From assembly GCA_020724775.1 (NCBI GenBank), contig DYGG01000016.1, positions 1-61,767 of the forward strand: a DNA stretch of 61,767 nucleotides, read 5' to 3'. The translations under genes were made by a program, and so were the position numbers. The notes under the pieces are model-generated. The model ran no database searches, had not been told where the DNA came from, and saw nothing but the letters and a program-made list of their open reading frames with translations. This DNA comes from Ignavibacterium sp. (lineage in GTDB: Bacteria; Zixibacteria; MSB-5A5; GN15; PGXB01). Positions 32,439-38,531 of the stretch are shown piece after piece. Each line of letters opens with the position of its first letter. Within the stretch, counting starts at the first letter, position 1.

Positions 32439-35162
32439 ATGTTCAGACACCGCGCCCAACTTTTCGCCTTTGCACTGCTTTCAACTCTCATTCTGTCGAG
32501 TATAGCCAGTTCCGAGACGGCATCAAGAGATTCCTCAACAGGCGATATCCGCTACCTTAAGAACCGCGTCGTTCCGGAAAAACCTAAGAACTTCAAGATT
32601 GCCTTCGATGCCTCCCTTCGTTATGTAGTCGTCAAATTTCAGGAGGGTTCCTCGGTCAGACTGCGCGGCAATAATCTCACTGCCGAGGCAAAACACTTTA
32701 ACTCCGTCAGACAGGCTGAAAAACTACTTTCCCCCTATATCAATAGCCAAATGGAGCGGCACTTCAAGATTAAATCCGAGCAAGAGTTGGAACGCGCCCG
32801 AGTCATAGCCGAGGCATCATCCAAGCACCAACTTGCCGACCTCAACCTTTACTATAGAATTCAGGTTGCCTCCGCGGCTGAAGGGGAAGATTTGGTCAAC
32901 CGTCTTAATCAATTGGACATTGTCGAGATTGCATATATCGAGCCGGTACCTGAACCGGCCGGAGATATCGCGCCGCCAACACCGGACTACGAATTTTATC
33001 AGGACTACCTGTTTGCCGCGCCCGGTGGTGTCGATGCCGAGTATGCCAAGACCCAGCCGGGCGGCGACGGCACCGGTGTCAAGATTATCGATATCGAATT
33101 TGAATGGACCGAGACCCATGAAGACCTGGAAAAGGCGCTGGGCGGAACCATTGTTGGCGGTGGCGCTCCCTTTGGCGATCACGGCACTGCTGTGATTGGC
33201 GAGATGATTGCCGGTGATAACGGCTATGGCGTTACCGGCATCTGCCCCGGCGCGGATATCGGAATGGTCTCGGTGGCGACCATCAGCACCGCCGAAGCGA
33301 TACTTGTTGCCGCAGACAATTTGCAGCCGGGCGACCTGATTCTGATTGAACTTCACGCTCCCGGCCCGCACTACAATTTCCAGGTTCGTTCCGACCAGCG
33401 CGGATATGTCTGTATGGAGTATTGGCAGGATAATTTTGATGCTATTCAATATGCCTGGGCAAAGGGTATTATCGTGGTCGAGGCGGCCGGCAACGGCGCT
33501 GAGAATTTTGATGACCCTGTATTGTATGGACAGATTTTTGATACTACCTACCGTAATTCCCACGCCATCATCGTAGGCGCCGGAGCGCCACCCAGCGGTG
33601 CCTACGGCACCGACCGCGCACGGCTCTCATTTTCCAATTACGGCGAGAGAGTCAATCTGCAGGGATATGGCGCCGGTGTCTATACCACCGGGTACGGCGG
33701 ACTCTTTGATGGTGGCGGGGACTATAACCAGCATTATACCGCAACTTTTTCCGGGACATCATCTGCTTCGCCCATAGTCACCGGCGCCGTGGCATGCCTT
33801 CAGGGTTACTACAAAGCAACTTACGGTGTTCCCATGACTGCCGACGCCGCTCGCACTCTACTCTATGCCACCGGCTCACCGCAGCAGGGTGTGCTATCAC
33901 AGCATATTGGTCCCCGTCCGGACCTGGCTTCCGCCTTTCCGGCAATAACTCCACCCTCCTCCCTTTACTCCAACCCGATATTTATCGACACTACCGTAGA
34001 GGGCGGAACCGTTGTAAATATACCGGTCTGGTTGCATAATCGCTCTATCTCGGCAGCCCTCGATTTTAACCTTATTGGGAATGACTCCCTTCCCAAAATG
34101 ACTATCGGAAATTGGCTGAACGCTTCCCCCGGCTCCGGCTCGATTCCCGCGCTTGACTCTATAGCGATTTCCGTTACTATCGATGCCACCATTATTCCCA
34201 CCAGTCTGATTAGATATAAAGGAATCGTTGAAATCTCCTGGGGGGAAGCCGGCAATCCGCTTGATTCCATCATTTATTTGCCGGTTTTTCTGACCGTTCC
34301 CTGCGCGACTGATACCACCTTTGCCGCCATGTCAAGTAACGACAGCGGCCCGGCATTTAATTGGATTGATATAACCGGCATCGGAACCTTAATTCCCAAG
34401 AATACCTATTACAATACTTTTTCGCCGACTACTCCTCTGGATGACGGCTCCGCCGGGCCTTTCAATCTCCCCTTCACCTTTAAATTCTTTGGAAACAATT
34501 ACACTCAATTCTATGTCGGGGTGAATGGCGCTATCTCCTTTACCGAATCAGAAGTCAACAGCAACGGTTACTTCAGTGGCTTAAATATCCCGGGAAATCC
34601 CTTTACTACCTTCGTATCCGCTTTCTGGAACGACCTGACCATCGATTCGGTACGAGGCGGACACGGTAACATCTATTATTATTTCAGCCCCACTCATGAT
34701 ACCGCGATAATTGAATGGTACCGGGTCGGAAACTTCAACTCCGCCAGTGATACTCTGACCACCTTTGAGATCATTCTCACCAAAAGAGGCGATATCATGT
34801 TTCAGTATCTTTCGGTCGGTAATTCAGGGTTGCAGAATACGGCATTGATAGGCCTTAGCGCCGTTGACTGCCAGGCCTCACCATACCTGGACAATTCCGT
34901 ACCGGCTAATCATCAGATTGGAAACGCTGATGCCGTTCTCTTTGTGAGACAGAATCTGGTCATGGCGGGTGATGCCAATAACAACGGCATCACAAATATT
35001 CTCGATGCCACCTATTTGCTTGCTTATATGTACCGAAGCGGACCGGCCCCGATACCGATGGAAGCCGGAGATGTCAACTGTAGCGGGGCGATTAATATTC
35101 TTGATGTGACCGCCCTGATTGGCTACCTCTACAAGTCCGGCGCGGCGCCATGCTTTTTCTGA
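32439..35162 (+). CDS. Secreted subtilisin-like (S8) protease with dockerin repeats
   Basis: 907 residues. A signal peptide (LFAFALLSTLILSSIASS) is followed by an inhibitor-like propeptide, then the S8 catalytic domain at about 200-500. The catalytic residues are Asp in VKIIDIEFEW (where most have D-T/S-G), His in FGDHGTAVIGEM and Ser in FSGTSSASPIVTGAV. The oxyanion Asn is in VEAAGNGAENF. A beta-rich middle follows, with a domain around LPFTFKFFGNNYTQFYVGVN. Two dockerin-type repeats end the protein (GDANNNGITNILDATYLLAY and GDVNCSGAINILDVTALIGY). AGGCAAG-type site GGAGG precedes the ATG. It is a probable extracellular or surface-attached protease. Confidence 0.92.
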   Translation: MFRHRAQLFAFALLSTLILSSIASSETASRDSSTGDIRYLKNRVVPEKPKNFKIAFDASLRYVVVKFQEGSSVRLRGNNLTAEAKHFNSVRQAEKLLSPYINSQMERHFKIKSEQELERARVIAEASSKHQLADLNLYYRIQVASAAEGEDLVNRLNQLDIVEIAYIEPVPEPAGDIAPPTPDYEFYQDYLFAAPGGVDAEYAKTQPGGDGTGVKIIDIEFEWTETHEDLEKALGGTIVGGGAPFGDHGTAVIGEMIAGDNGYGVTGICPGADIGMVSVATISTAEAILVAADNLQPGDLILIELHAPGPHYNFQVRSDQRGYVCMEYWQDNFDAIQYAWAKGIIVVEAAGNGAENFDDPVLYGQIFDTTYRNSHAIIVGAGAPPSGAYGTDRARLSFSNYGERVNLQGYGAGVYTTGYGGLFDGGGDYNQHYTATFSGTSSASPIVTGAVACLQGYYKATYGVPMTADAARTLLYATGSPQQGVLSQHIGPRPDLASAFPAITPPSSLYSNPIFIDTTVEGGTVVNIPVWLHNRSISAALDFNLIGNDSLPKMTIGNWLNASPGSGSIPALDSIAISVTIDATIIPTSLIRYKGIVEISWGEAGNPLDSIIYLPVFLTVPCATDTTFAAMSSNDSGPAFNWIDITGIGTLIPKNTYYNTFSPTTPLDDGSAGPFNLPFTFKFFGNNYTQFYVGVNGAISFTESEVNSNGYFSGLNIPGNPFTTFVSAFWNDLTIDSVRGGHGNIYYYFSPTHDTAIIEWYRVGNFNSASDTLTTFEIILTKRGDIMFQYLSVGNSGLQNTALIGLSAVDCQASPYLDNSVPANHQIGNADAVLFVRQNLVMAGDANNNGITNILDATYLLAYMYRSGPAPIPMEAGDVNCSGAINILDVTALIGYLYKSGAAPCFF

Positions 35163-35242: not shown

Positions 35243-36688
35243 TTAAATCAGCGAAAAGAAACTGAGGCGAGTGAGCGCCACCCAGTATTGCGGAAACAAT
35301 CCGAGCGCCACGGTTCCTGCCGCCGTAATCAGAAGAACGATGGCCATTGCCGGCTTCAGCGATAGAGGCGCAAATTCCATATCTGTTTTGCCGAAGTACG
35401 CTGCCACGACAACCCGCAGGTAATAATAGACGGAGAGAAAGCTGTTCATGACGCCGATAATTGCCAGCCAGATATAACCCTGCTTGATAGCCTCGGAAAA
35501 AATATAGAATTTCCCAAAAAACCCTGCGGTTGGCGGAAACCCGGCGAGGGATAACATGAAAAACGCCATAAGGGCTGCCAGATATGGATGTCGCGCGGAG
35601 AGCCCTTTGATTTCGTCAATAGATGCCGTACTTCCCTCCCGGCTGTCCAACATCGTTACCAGCGCAAAACCACCCAGATTGAAAAAGGAGTAAGCCAGAA
35701 GATAGAAAAGGGCCGATGATACCGCTCCTTGGCCGCCGGCTGTGAGCGCCACCAGTATGTAACCGGCGTGTGCTATAGAAGAATATGCTAATAGTCTCTT
35801 AATATTGTCCTGGTAAATTGCCAGAATGTTGCCGACTGTCATTGTTAATACCGCCACCACCCAGAAGAGCCACTGCAAATCTTCTATTCCCCCCAAACCG
35901 AAGACAAATATTCGCAGAAGTGCGGCGAAGCCGGCCGCTTTTGGCGCCACCGAAAAGAAAGCCGTAACCGGCGTAGGAGCCCCCTGGTACACATCCGGCA
36001 CCCACATATGAAAAGGCACCGCGGCTACCTTGAACCCAAATCCAATCAGCACCAAGACCGCTCCGGAATAGAGGAAAAGTCCCGAATGCATCGCCAGGAA
36101 GCCAAAATCCATCACAATACGCCTCAGATCGGTCGTGCCGGCGGCGCCGTAAATGAAGGCAATTCCAAGCAGCAAGAACCCGGTTGCAAAGGCTCCCATC
36201 ATGAAGTACTTAATTCCGGCCTCGTTTGATTCTGCGCTGTGTCGGGCGAATCCCGCCATAACATAAAGCGGCACCGACATTATTTCCAGTCCGAGGAATA
36301 TAACAACCAGGTCGGAACTTCCCGCCATCGTCATCATCCCCATTGCCGAAAACAACAATAGCGGATAAAATTCAAATCGTTCAATACCGCGTGATATCAA
36401 ATAGTTGCGCGACATCAAGAGCGACACCCCGGTGGCAATCAGGAAAATGATTTTGAAGAAAACCGCGAAGTTGTCCACCTGCACCATCCCGTAAAATCCT
36501 GATGAAAGTCCATCCCACTGCCGTAAAGTCAGAATCAGCGCTACCGCCAGGCCCGCCAGAGCGAGGTAGGCGATTATTCCCTTGTTTCTCACAAAATTTC
36601 CGACAAGAAGCAACGCCATCGCCACTGCCAATATCACCAATTCCGGTGCAATAATTCCAAAATCGAGTGCCGCTGATTTTATATCCAT
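35243..36688 (-). CDS. nuoN: NADH-quinone oxidoreductase subunit N
   Basis: 481 residues, about 14 membrane helices. It is one of three antiporter-like proton-pumping subunits of complex I. Recognisable segments are LFSAMGMMTMAGSSDLVVIFLGLE (E in helix 5 region), KVAAVPFHMWVPDVYQGAPT and DNIKRLLAYSSIAHAGYIL with the conserved channel lysines. It is the last gene of the nuo operon, separated from nuoM by the selenoprotein glutaredoxin gene. The bidirectional terminator follows. Confidence 0.96.
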   Translation of the reverse strand: MDIKSAALDFGIIAPELVILAVAMALLLVGNFVRNKGIIAYLALAGLAVALILTLRQWDGLSSGFYGMVQVDNFAVFFKIIFLIATGVSLLMSRNYLISRGIERFEFYPLLLFSAMGMMTMAGSSDLVVIFLGLEIMSVPLYVMAGFARHSAESNEAGIKYFMMGAFATGFLLLGIAFIYGAAGTTDLRRIVMDFGFLAMHSGLFLYSGAVLVLIGFGFKVAAVPFHMWVPDVYQGAPTPVTAFFSVAPKAAGFAALLRIFVFGLGGIEDLQWLFWVVAVLTMTVGNILAIYQDNIKRLLAYSSIAHAGYILVALTAGGQGAVSSALFYLLAYSFFNLGGFALVTMLDSREGSTASIDEIKGLSARHPYLAALMAFFMLSLAGFPPTAGFFGKFYIFSEAIKQGYIWLAIIGVMNSFLSVYYYLRVVVAAYFGKTDMEFAPLSLKPAMAIVLLITAAGTVALGLFPQYWVALTRLSFFSLI

Positions 36689-36704: not shown

Positions 36705-36725
36705 AAAACGCCTCCCGGGCGTTCC
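36705..36725 (-). promoter_or_regulatory. Candidate bacterial SECIS element of the glutaredoxin-like gene
   Basis: On the minus strand AACGCC (36723-36718) pairs perfectly with GGCGTT (36712-36707), extended by two G-U wobbles. The loop is CGGGA with G at its second position, as the bacterial consensus asks. The loop starts 20 nt after the UGA. It lies mostly past the TAG stop, in the gap before nuoN. Confidence 0.72.
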
Positions 36726-36727
36726 TG

Positions 36728-36949
36728 CTAAATGCCTCAGCCTCCGCCAAAACCAACTTTGACCGCACCATCTTCAATAATGACCGGAACGATCGCCTTC
36801 CCGCCTGCAACACGTATCGCCTCTTCTTTTGCGCCTTTCACGGAGTAGACGTCAATTTCCTTAAAAGGTATCCCCTCCTGAGTATAATGCTCCTTTGCCG
36901 CAGCGCAGTAAGGACATCCCGGTTTGGTGTAAATGGTAACCTCGGGCAT
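36728..36949 (-). CDS. Glutaredoxin-like selenoprotein with C-terminal Sec-Gly-Ile (Uxx-stop type)
   Basis: 73 residues if TGA 36737-36739 is Sec. The thioredoxin fold opens MPEVTIYTKPGCPYCAAAKE with an intact CPYC site (Cys12/Cys15), then IPFKEIDVYS and the cis-Pro segment KAIVPVIIE. The tail VKVGFGGG runs into TGA and would read GGC ATT TAG, giving U71-G72-I73-stop. From memory, a glutaredoxin-like (seleno)protein family is named for exactly this Sec-x-x-stop ending; I could not check it. A penultimate Sec on a flexible glycine tail resembles the redox arm of thioredoxin reductase. ATG 36949 has GGAGG upstream inside the nuoM stop region. It sits between nuoM and nuoN in the complex I operon. 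If TGA is only a stop, the product is 70 residues. Confidence 0.82.
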
Positions 36950-36950
36950 T

Positions 36951-38531
36951 TCATCCTCCATCTACATTCAAGGTGTAACATTCCTTCGTTCCCAGGCGAA
37001 AAGCAAACCTCTCCGCCCTCGCCTTTACATTGTCCCGGTCGACCTGCTCAGCACGTTTCACCATTCCCAGAATATTCTTAACAGCCGGCTCCATCCTGAC
37101 GAAAAACGGTTTGGGATAAATCCCGATCCAGAAAATAAGGAGCACCAGCGGTACTAGCACCAGTTTTTCGCGGCCATAAAGGTCGTGAAGATTTTCATTT
37201 ACGGTCTGCGTAATCTTTCCAAAAATCACTCTCTGAAGCATCCAGAGCATATAGCAGGCGGCAAGAATTACCCCGGTCGCCGCCAAAACTGCGTATGTCA
37301 CATTTGCCTTAAACGTACCCAGCAGTATCAGAAATTCTCCCACAAAGCCGTTAGTCAGCGGCAGCCCGATTGACGATAGCGCCACAATCATAAAGAAGAC
37401 CGAGAAAACCGGCATCGATTTCGCCAGTCCGCCGAATTCCGATATCAAGCGGGTATGCCGCCGCTCATATAACATGCCGACAATCAAAAAGAGCGCTCCG
37501 GTGGAGATGCCGTGATTAATCATCTGGATCACGGCTCCTTCCATCCCCTGGACATTAAGGGCCATCATCCCCAGCATAACAAAACCGAGATGGGACACCG
37601 AGGAAAATGCCACCAGCGATTTCACATCCCGCTGCACCATCGCCACCAGCGCCCCATAGATAATCCCGATTATCGCCAGAATCGAAATGAGCGGCACAAA
37701 TTTCAAAGTTGCCTCGGGAAACAGAGGCAGGCAAATTCGGATGAAGCCGTAGGTCCCCATTTTGAGAAGAACTCCGGCCAGTATTACCGAGCCGGCTGTA
37801 GGCGCCTCCACATGGGCATCGGGCAGCCACGTATGGAAGGGCCAGATCGGCACTTTAATTGCAAACGCCAGCGCGAAAGCCAAAAACATGTAGGTCTGCG
37901 CTCCCAGCGGAATCGGCATCTGATAAATCTTCAAAAGGTCAAAACTGTACTCTCCGGCGTATCCGTGGTACATAAAAAACAAATAAAGAAGCGCCACCAG
38001 CATCAGAAGCGAACCGAACATCGTAAAAAGCACAAATTTTATCGCCGCATAAATCTTTCTTGGTCCGCCCCAGACACCTATGAGGAAATACATCGGTATC
38101 AACATCGCTTCCCAGAAGACATAAAACAGAAAGAGGTCGAGAGCGACAAAAACTCCCAGCATCCCTGTCTCCAGAAGCAGCATTGATATATAGTACCCCT
38201 TGACTCCGGTCGTAATGGCGCCCCATGAAGAGACAATCGCCAGCAGAGACAACACCGTTGTCAGTAGAATCAAAAGGAGCGAAATGCCGTCGATGCCCAG
38301 ATGATAATTGATTCCAAAGGCCGCCACCCAGGGCAGATTTATTTCGAACTGCATCCCGTTGGCAAAGGGGTCAAACTGGGCATACAAGAAAAAGGAGAGC
38401 AGCATGGTGATGAAAGAAATAATAATGGCAATCCCTTTTATCGAATCTTTCGCCTCCTTGGGGACCACAATCAAGAGCGCCGCTCCCAAAAGCGGAAAGA
38501 ACGTTACCAAAGTCAGAATATCTATACCCAT
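36951..38531 (-). CDS. nuoM: NADH-quinone oxidoreductase subunit M
   Basis: 526 residues, about 14 membrane helices, a proton-pumping antiporter-like subunit. Key segments are the FYVFWEAMLIPMYFLIG helix-5 Glu region, AIKVPIWPFHTWLPDAHVEAP with the central Lys, and DVKSLVAFSSVSHLGFVMLG. The C-terminus carries a soluble extension, ending near TLNVDGG. It is followed 1 nt after its stop by the glutaredoxin start, so the two are translationally linked. Confidence 0.96.
   Translation of the reverse strand: MGIDILTLVTFFPLLGAALLIVVPKEAKDSIKGIAIIISFITMLLSFFLYAQFDPFANGMQFEINLPWVAAFGINYHLGIDGISLLLILLTTVLSLLAIVSSWGAITTGVKGYYISMLLLETGMLGVFVALDLFLFYVFWEAMLIPMYFLIGVWGGPRKIYAAIKFVLFTMFGSLLMLVALLYLFFMYHGYAGEYSFDLLKIYQMPIPLGAQTYMFLAFALAFAIKVPIWPFHTWLPDAHVEAPTAGSVILAGVLLKMGTYGFIRICLPLFPEATLKFVPLISILAIIGIIYGALVAMVQRDVKSLVAFSSVSHLGFVMLGMMALNVQGMEGAVIQMINHGISTGALFLIVGMLYERRHTRLISEFGGLAKSMPVFSVFFMIVALSSIGLPLTNGFVGEFLILLGTFKANVTYAVLAATGVILAACYMLWMLQRVIFGKITQTVNENLHDLYGREKLVLVPLVLLIFWIGIYPKPFFVRMEPAVKNILGMVKRAEQVDRDNVKARAERFAFRLGTKECYTLNVDGG

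Follow-up and report, generated by a model that had tools for sequence, protein, structure and literature searches.

A predicted Uxx-star glutaredoxin-like selenoprotein encoded between nuoM and nuoN in Zixibacteria

A small gene lying between nuoM and nuoN in the window, the 61,767-nucleotide stretch of DNA analysed here, almost certainly encodes a selenoprotein in which selenocysteine (Sec) is inserted at a UGA codon. This confidence covers the selenoprotein identity of the product and the insertion of Sec; the chemistry of the residue and a role in complex I are separate matters, graded below. Its product is a member of Uxx-star, a family already on record. Starting from raw sequence, the analysis could confirm a selenoprotein that has its key residue at an apparent stop codon.

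The UGA codon and the selenocysteine machinery

Translation bore out the original prediction both in its coordinates and in its reading of a 70-residue product whose GFGGG end is followed by TGA, two sense codons and TAG (Table 1). In the minus-strand frame opened by the ATG at 36949, the 70 codons before UGA translate to MPEVTIYTKPGCPYCAAAKEHYTQEGIPFKEIDVYSVKGAKEEAIRVAGGKAIVPVIIEDGAVKVGFGGG. After UGA come GGC and ATT, and then TAG at 36730-36728.

Table 1. Features of the Uxx-star locus, with positions numbered along the window.
Feature	Position	Strand	Description and basis
Uxx-star glutaredoxin-like selenoprotein gene	36728..36949	(-)	73 residues, MPEV...GFGGG-Sec-Gly-Ile-stop(UAG), as predicted; translation and NF041212 match
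UGA, predicted Sec71 codon	36739-36737	(-)	codon 71; TGA kept here in 80/80 relatives
CPYC redox site, Cys12-Pro-Tyr-Cys15	36905..36916	(-)	translation
GGAGG, Shine-Dalgarno-like	36955..36959	(-)	5 nt ahead of ATG 36949; from sequence
Bacterial SECIS-like hairpin	36705..36725	(-)	8-bp stem, loop CGGGA; 3' of the real stop
nuoM (complex I subunit M)	36951..38531	(-)	ORF, and relatives have homologs at this position; ends 1 nt short of the Uxx-star start
nuoN (complex I subunit N)	35243..36688	(-)	ORF, and homologs in the same place in relatives; starts 39 nt past the Uxx-star stop

The scan covered 84,980 species, each by one genome, with a query alignment that ended before the UGA, and kept the 80 best loci. 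They come from Zixibacteria and from records labelled Actinomycetes or Thermoleophilia, Chloroflexota, Acidobacteriota, Eremiobacterota, Bacillota and others. With the query cut ahead of the codon, TGA was nevertheless found at the tail position in all 80 best relatives. It had been asked whether homologs end in C-x-x or U-x-x, and these 80 all carry TGA at the tail position and Cys in none; nor did any end at GGG, an outcome that would have argued against Sec. A stop follows exactly three codons past TGA in 72 of the 80 loci, as TAA (44), TAG (14) or TGA (14). Sec coding predicts just this pattern, in which TGA stays fixed and the true stop after it varies freely. Matches without an internal stop in four genomes (G061, G064, G065 and G066) were considered as Cys forms and rejected: their UGA lies one residue further, and they are thus Sec forms.

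The genome itself encodes the Sec machinery, the absence of which would likewise have told against the prediction. The genes selA and selB adjoin on contig 75, a tRNA-Sec is present (73 bits), and selD lies on contig 25. A single in-frame TGA lies within this selD, which probably codes for a selenoprotein too. Given the conservation of the codon and the machinery encoded alongside it, Sec insertion at this UGA is well supported.

The hairpin past the true stop

The stem-loop downstream of UAG reads GGAACGCC-CGGGA-GGCGUUUU, with an inner 6 bp that are Watson-Crick. Its core, AACGCC-CGGGA-GGCGTT, is perfect over these 6 bp, and the stem reaches 8 bp when two G-U pairs are counted. Both the perfect 6-bp stem and the G at loop position 2 are as first described; the spacing from UGA to the loop is 19 nt, next to 20 nt in that description. 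These are the marks of a bacterial SECIS element, namely a stem-loop that stands at SelB distance and has a G among its first two loop bases, and SelB would be expected to bind this hairpin, just past the real stop, so that Sec is inserted at UGA. By itself the window hairpin does not stand out from chance (z -0.9 to -1.6; 15 to 41 of 200 shuffles equal it), so the case for SECIS rests on comparison. An Rfam search of the window returned one tRNA only and no match to a SECIS family.

Taking the best hairpin of each relative, G occupies loop position 1 or 2 in all 91 distinct 3' regions. The loop lies 16-24 nt from UGA in 89 of them, 26 nt in one and 13 nt in one, and the mean hairpin score is 17.8 vs 9.8 for dinucleotide shuffles of these regions. 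An alignment of the 3' regions with MAFFT was dropped because it misaligned loops of different classes, and the stem was therefore tested on 3' regions anchored on the GGTC loop motif, with pairing not used for anchoring. In register, 84% of stem cells were paired, each position showing 2 to 4 kinds of Watson-Crick pair, compared with 26-43% in five of the six slid registers used as control. Register -3 was also 74% paired, probably owing to GTC repeats around the loop, which leaves the other five as controls. In 14 relatives (L078, L093, L099, L102, L111 and others) UGA appears both as Sec codon and as true stop; the two UGAs, three codons apart, differ in their distance to the SECIS hairpin and offer a natural case of one codon in both positions.

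It could be argued that UGA is the true stop of a 70-residue glutaredoxin ending in GGG, and that the hairpin is a terminator or an mRNA-stability element of the nuo operon. The hairpin does sit in the intergenic stretch ahead of nuoN, and the shuffles of the window hairpin taken alone would allow such a reading. However, the codon is TGA, never TAA or TAG, in every one of the 80 relatives, whereas the stop that comes three codons later may be any of the three; the loop G and the spacing are conserved among relatives as well, and a full Sec system is encoded in the genome. A terminator is further disfavored by what follows the hairpin, only a short T-run and then, 16 nt on, nuoN on the same strand. 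Termination at UGA is therefore very improbable, and Sec insertion is the reading retained in what follows.

The redox site and the nuo operon

In glutaredoxin structures the residues that follow VP...GF are close to the active site, and ordinary members then have a last helix. The AlphaFold2 model, built with Cys replacing Sec, has a mean pLDDT of 92 and a glutaredoxin/NrdH fold, and its best PDB matches are BC3987 (3zij), glutaredoxins and NrdH. The 73-residue Uxx-star protein would thus have an NrdH/YruB-type fold with the C-terminal helix swapped for a short GGG-Sec-Gly-Ile tail. The CPYC site is intact, as claimed from the start, with Cys12 and Cys15 present in the translation, and Cys12 is invariant across the aligned set. 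Two loci carry CPYS for CPYC (Cys15 to Ser) and keep the near-terminal Sec (L198:3019-3225 and L199:23-226); the two genomes with this variant belong to a single genus of the class. Within that small sample, retention of Sec beside CPYS favors a role for Sec71 as resolving partner or co-ligand of Cys12. The sequences suggest that Sec can partner Cys12, and a putative redox role for the tail Sec is plausible. With moderate confidence, we infer for the predicted protein a chemistry of the Cys12-Sec71 tail in which the tail Sec and Cys12 of CPYC most likely constitute a redox or a metal/metalloid-binding pair; as an example, a disulfide could be reduced with formation of a Cys12-Sec71 selenenylsulfide.

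In Zixibacteria the gene is embedded in the operon of complex I. The gene directly upstream is nuoM in 53 of the 80 loci (Zixibacteria or near-unlabelled records), and nuoN is directly downstream in 50 of those 53, the contig ending in the other three. The remaining 27 loci, from other phyla, have no nuo genes around Uxx-star. Further families of the class have the nuo arrangement in 16/16 loci, on both sides in 14 and up to a contig end in 2; a seventeenth locus, L193, stands outside this count as a different glutaredoxin. A Uxx-star match above cut-off was obtained in 88 of 132 genomes from across the phylum. In G011 and G014, which lack the gene, nuoM is joined to nuoN and there is no Cys version. 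Since G011 has selA and no Uxx-star gene, Uxx-star is dispensable even where Sec machinery is present. In G008 (L155) the gene is frameshifted within the nuo operon, with selA present, as a result of either pseudogene formation or an assembly error. The presence of selA and of Uxx-star was compared over 60 genomes, and because many of these are incomplete their co-occurrence is weakly informative. Next to the nuo operon, the translation of window positions 32439-35162 reads, on inspection by eye, as a large subtilase-like protein (907 aa) that has dockerin-like repeats at its C-terminus.

What the tail does, and why the gene is where it is, may each be read in more than one way. One possibility is that Sec is inserted and the tail chiefly binds a metal or metalloid together with the CPYC cysteines, and does not act as a catalytic redox residue. 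A 2026 review, in which UXX-star selenoproteins figure as one of the predicted prokaryotic families, their suggested role being metal-binding or unknown, says that the UXX-star Sec may be a metal-binding ligand (PMC13188914). Placed at the end of a glycine tail, Sec would be accessible for this purpose, and the failure to find a Cys form in the 80 nearest relatives also speaks for it. On the other side, the nuo context in Zixibacteria points equally to thiol redox, as does a gene for a ResA-like thiol-disulfide oxidoreductase that adjoins Uxx-star in L112, and metal-resistance neighbors were seen in none of the few loci examined. We hold a tail given over mainly to metal binding to be possible, if on the unlikely side. 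As to location, the nuo position could be a historical insertion common to the phylum, expressed along with nuo but functionally unconnected with complex I. Loci of the Actinomycetota type have glycolysis genes and a ResA-like gene nearby, aldehyde dehydrogenase genes lie upstream in L117 and L139, and the second nuo operons of three genomes (L163, L164 and L166) are without the gene, all of which would suit such an insertion. Against it, the position is kept in all sampled families of the class, even though NuoN there is only about 48-71% identical to that of the window. Historical insertion falls only a little short of an even chance.

A functional link with complex I in Zixibacteria, as we infer it from gene position, would mean that Uxx-star is probably made off the nuo mRNA along with complex I, and that it may act in the maturation or repair of the complex or in its redox protection. 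Such a role could not be the general one, as the gene lies outside nuo operons in other phyla. The most specific proposal, that Uxx-star of Zixibacteria is dedicated to complex I and serves its assembly, repair or redox control, with Cys12 and Sec as the working redox pair and Cys15 dispensable, is put forward tentatively and is, as a whole, unlikely. The nuoM-uxx-nuoN arrangement across the phylum and the CPYS variants nonetheless provide testable clues to what the family does.

Relation to known families

With UGA read as Sec, the window protein scores 112.8 bits against NCBIfam NF041212, "Uxx-star family glutaredoxin-like (seleno)protein", over profile positions 1-70 of 70, the curated cut-off being 66 bits. 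Its tail UGA GGC AUU UAG has the Uxx-star form of an in-frame UGA, two sense codons and a stop. The expectation that automated annotation would miss the Sec probably does not hold for current NCBI annotation, as the family is already catalogued. Because UXX-star selenoprotein family 1 (NF041114) gave 69.6 bits, just under its cut-off of 72, the protein is filed under the general subfamily only; family 2 (NF041211) gave 71.2 bits vs a cut-off of 100, and family 3 (NF047338) 63.1 vs 97. The window protein shares with NF041212 the terminal Sec-x-x, the CPYC glutaredoxin-like domain and the stop two residues past Sec, and in the protein itself there is no difference. What sets it apart is the nuoM-nuoN position in Zixibacteria, no description of which was found in the UXX-star review, the paper that this comparison covers.

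The HUGP/GUXX-star fusion selenoprotein (NF045501) has a C-terminal Uxx-star domain with the same type of tail. An example from a Chloroflexota record (L153:3114-3716) places this domain behind a C_GCAxxG_C_C-type domain, and the window protein is without that N-terminal C_GCAxxG_C_C-like domain. Active-site Sec glutaredoxins (UxxC) likewise carry Sec in a glutaredoxin, but there it takes the place of the first Cys of CxxC, whereas in the window protein CPYC is intact and the predicted Sec is near the C-terminus. The locus L193:2019-2210 encodes a glutaredoxin of another sort, whose UGA falls within the active site (GUIFC) and whose C-terminal helix is normal, and weak UGA-containing matches in other genomes may be of this kind. 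Finally, the fold and CPYC are common to the NrdH and YruB-type redoxins and to glutaredoxin 3 (TIGR02194, TIGR02196, TIGR02181). The nearest family without Sec is YruB, at 56 bits; glutaredoxin 3 (TIGR02181) gave 45.1 bits vs a cut-off of 90 and NrdH (TIGR02194) 36.7 vs 85.75. The window protein differs from all of these in scoring under their cut-offs and in the GGG-Sec-Gly-Ile tail that would replace the missing last helix.
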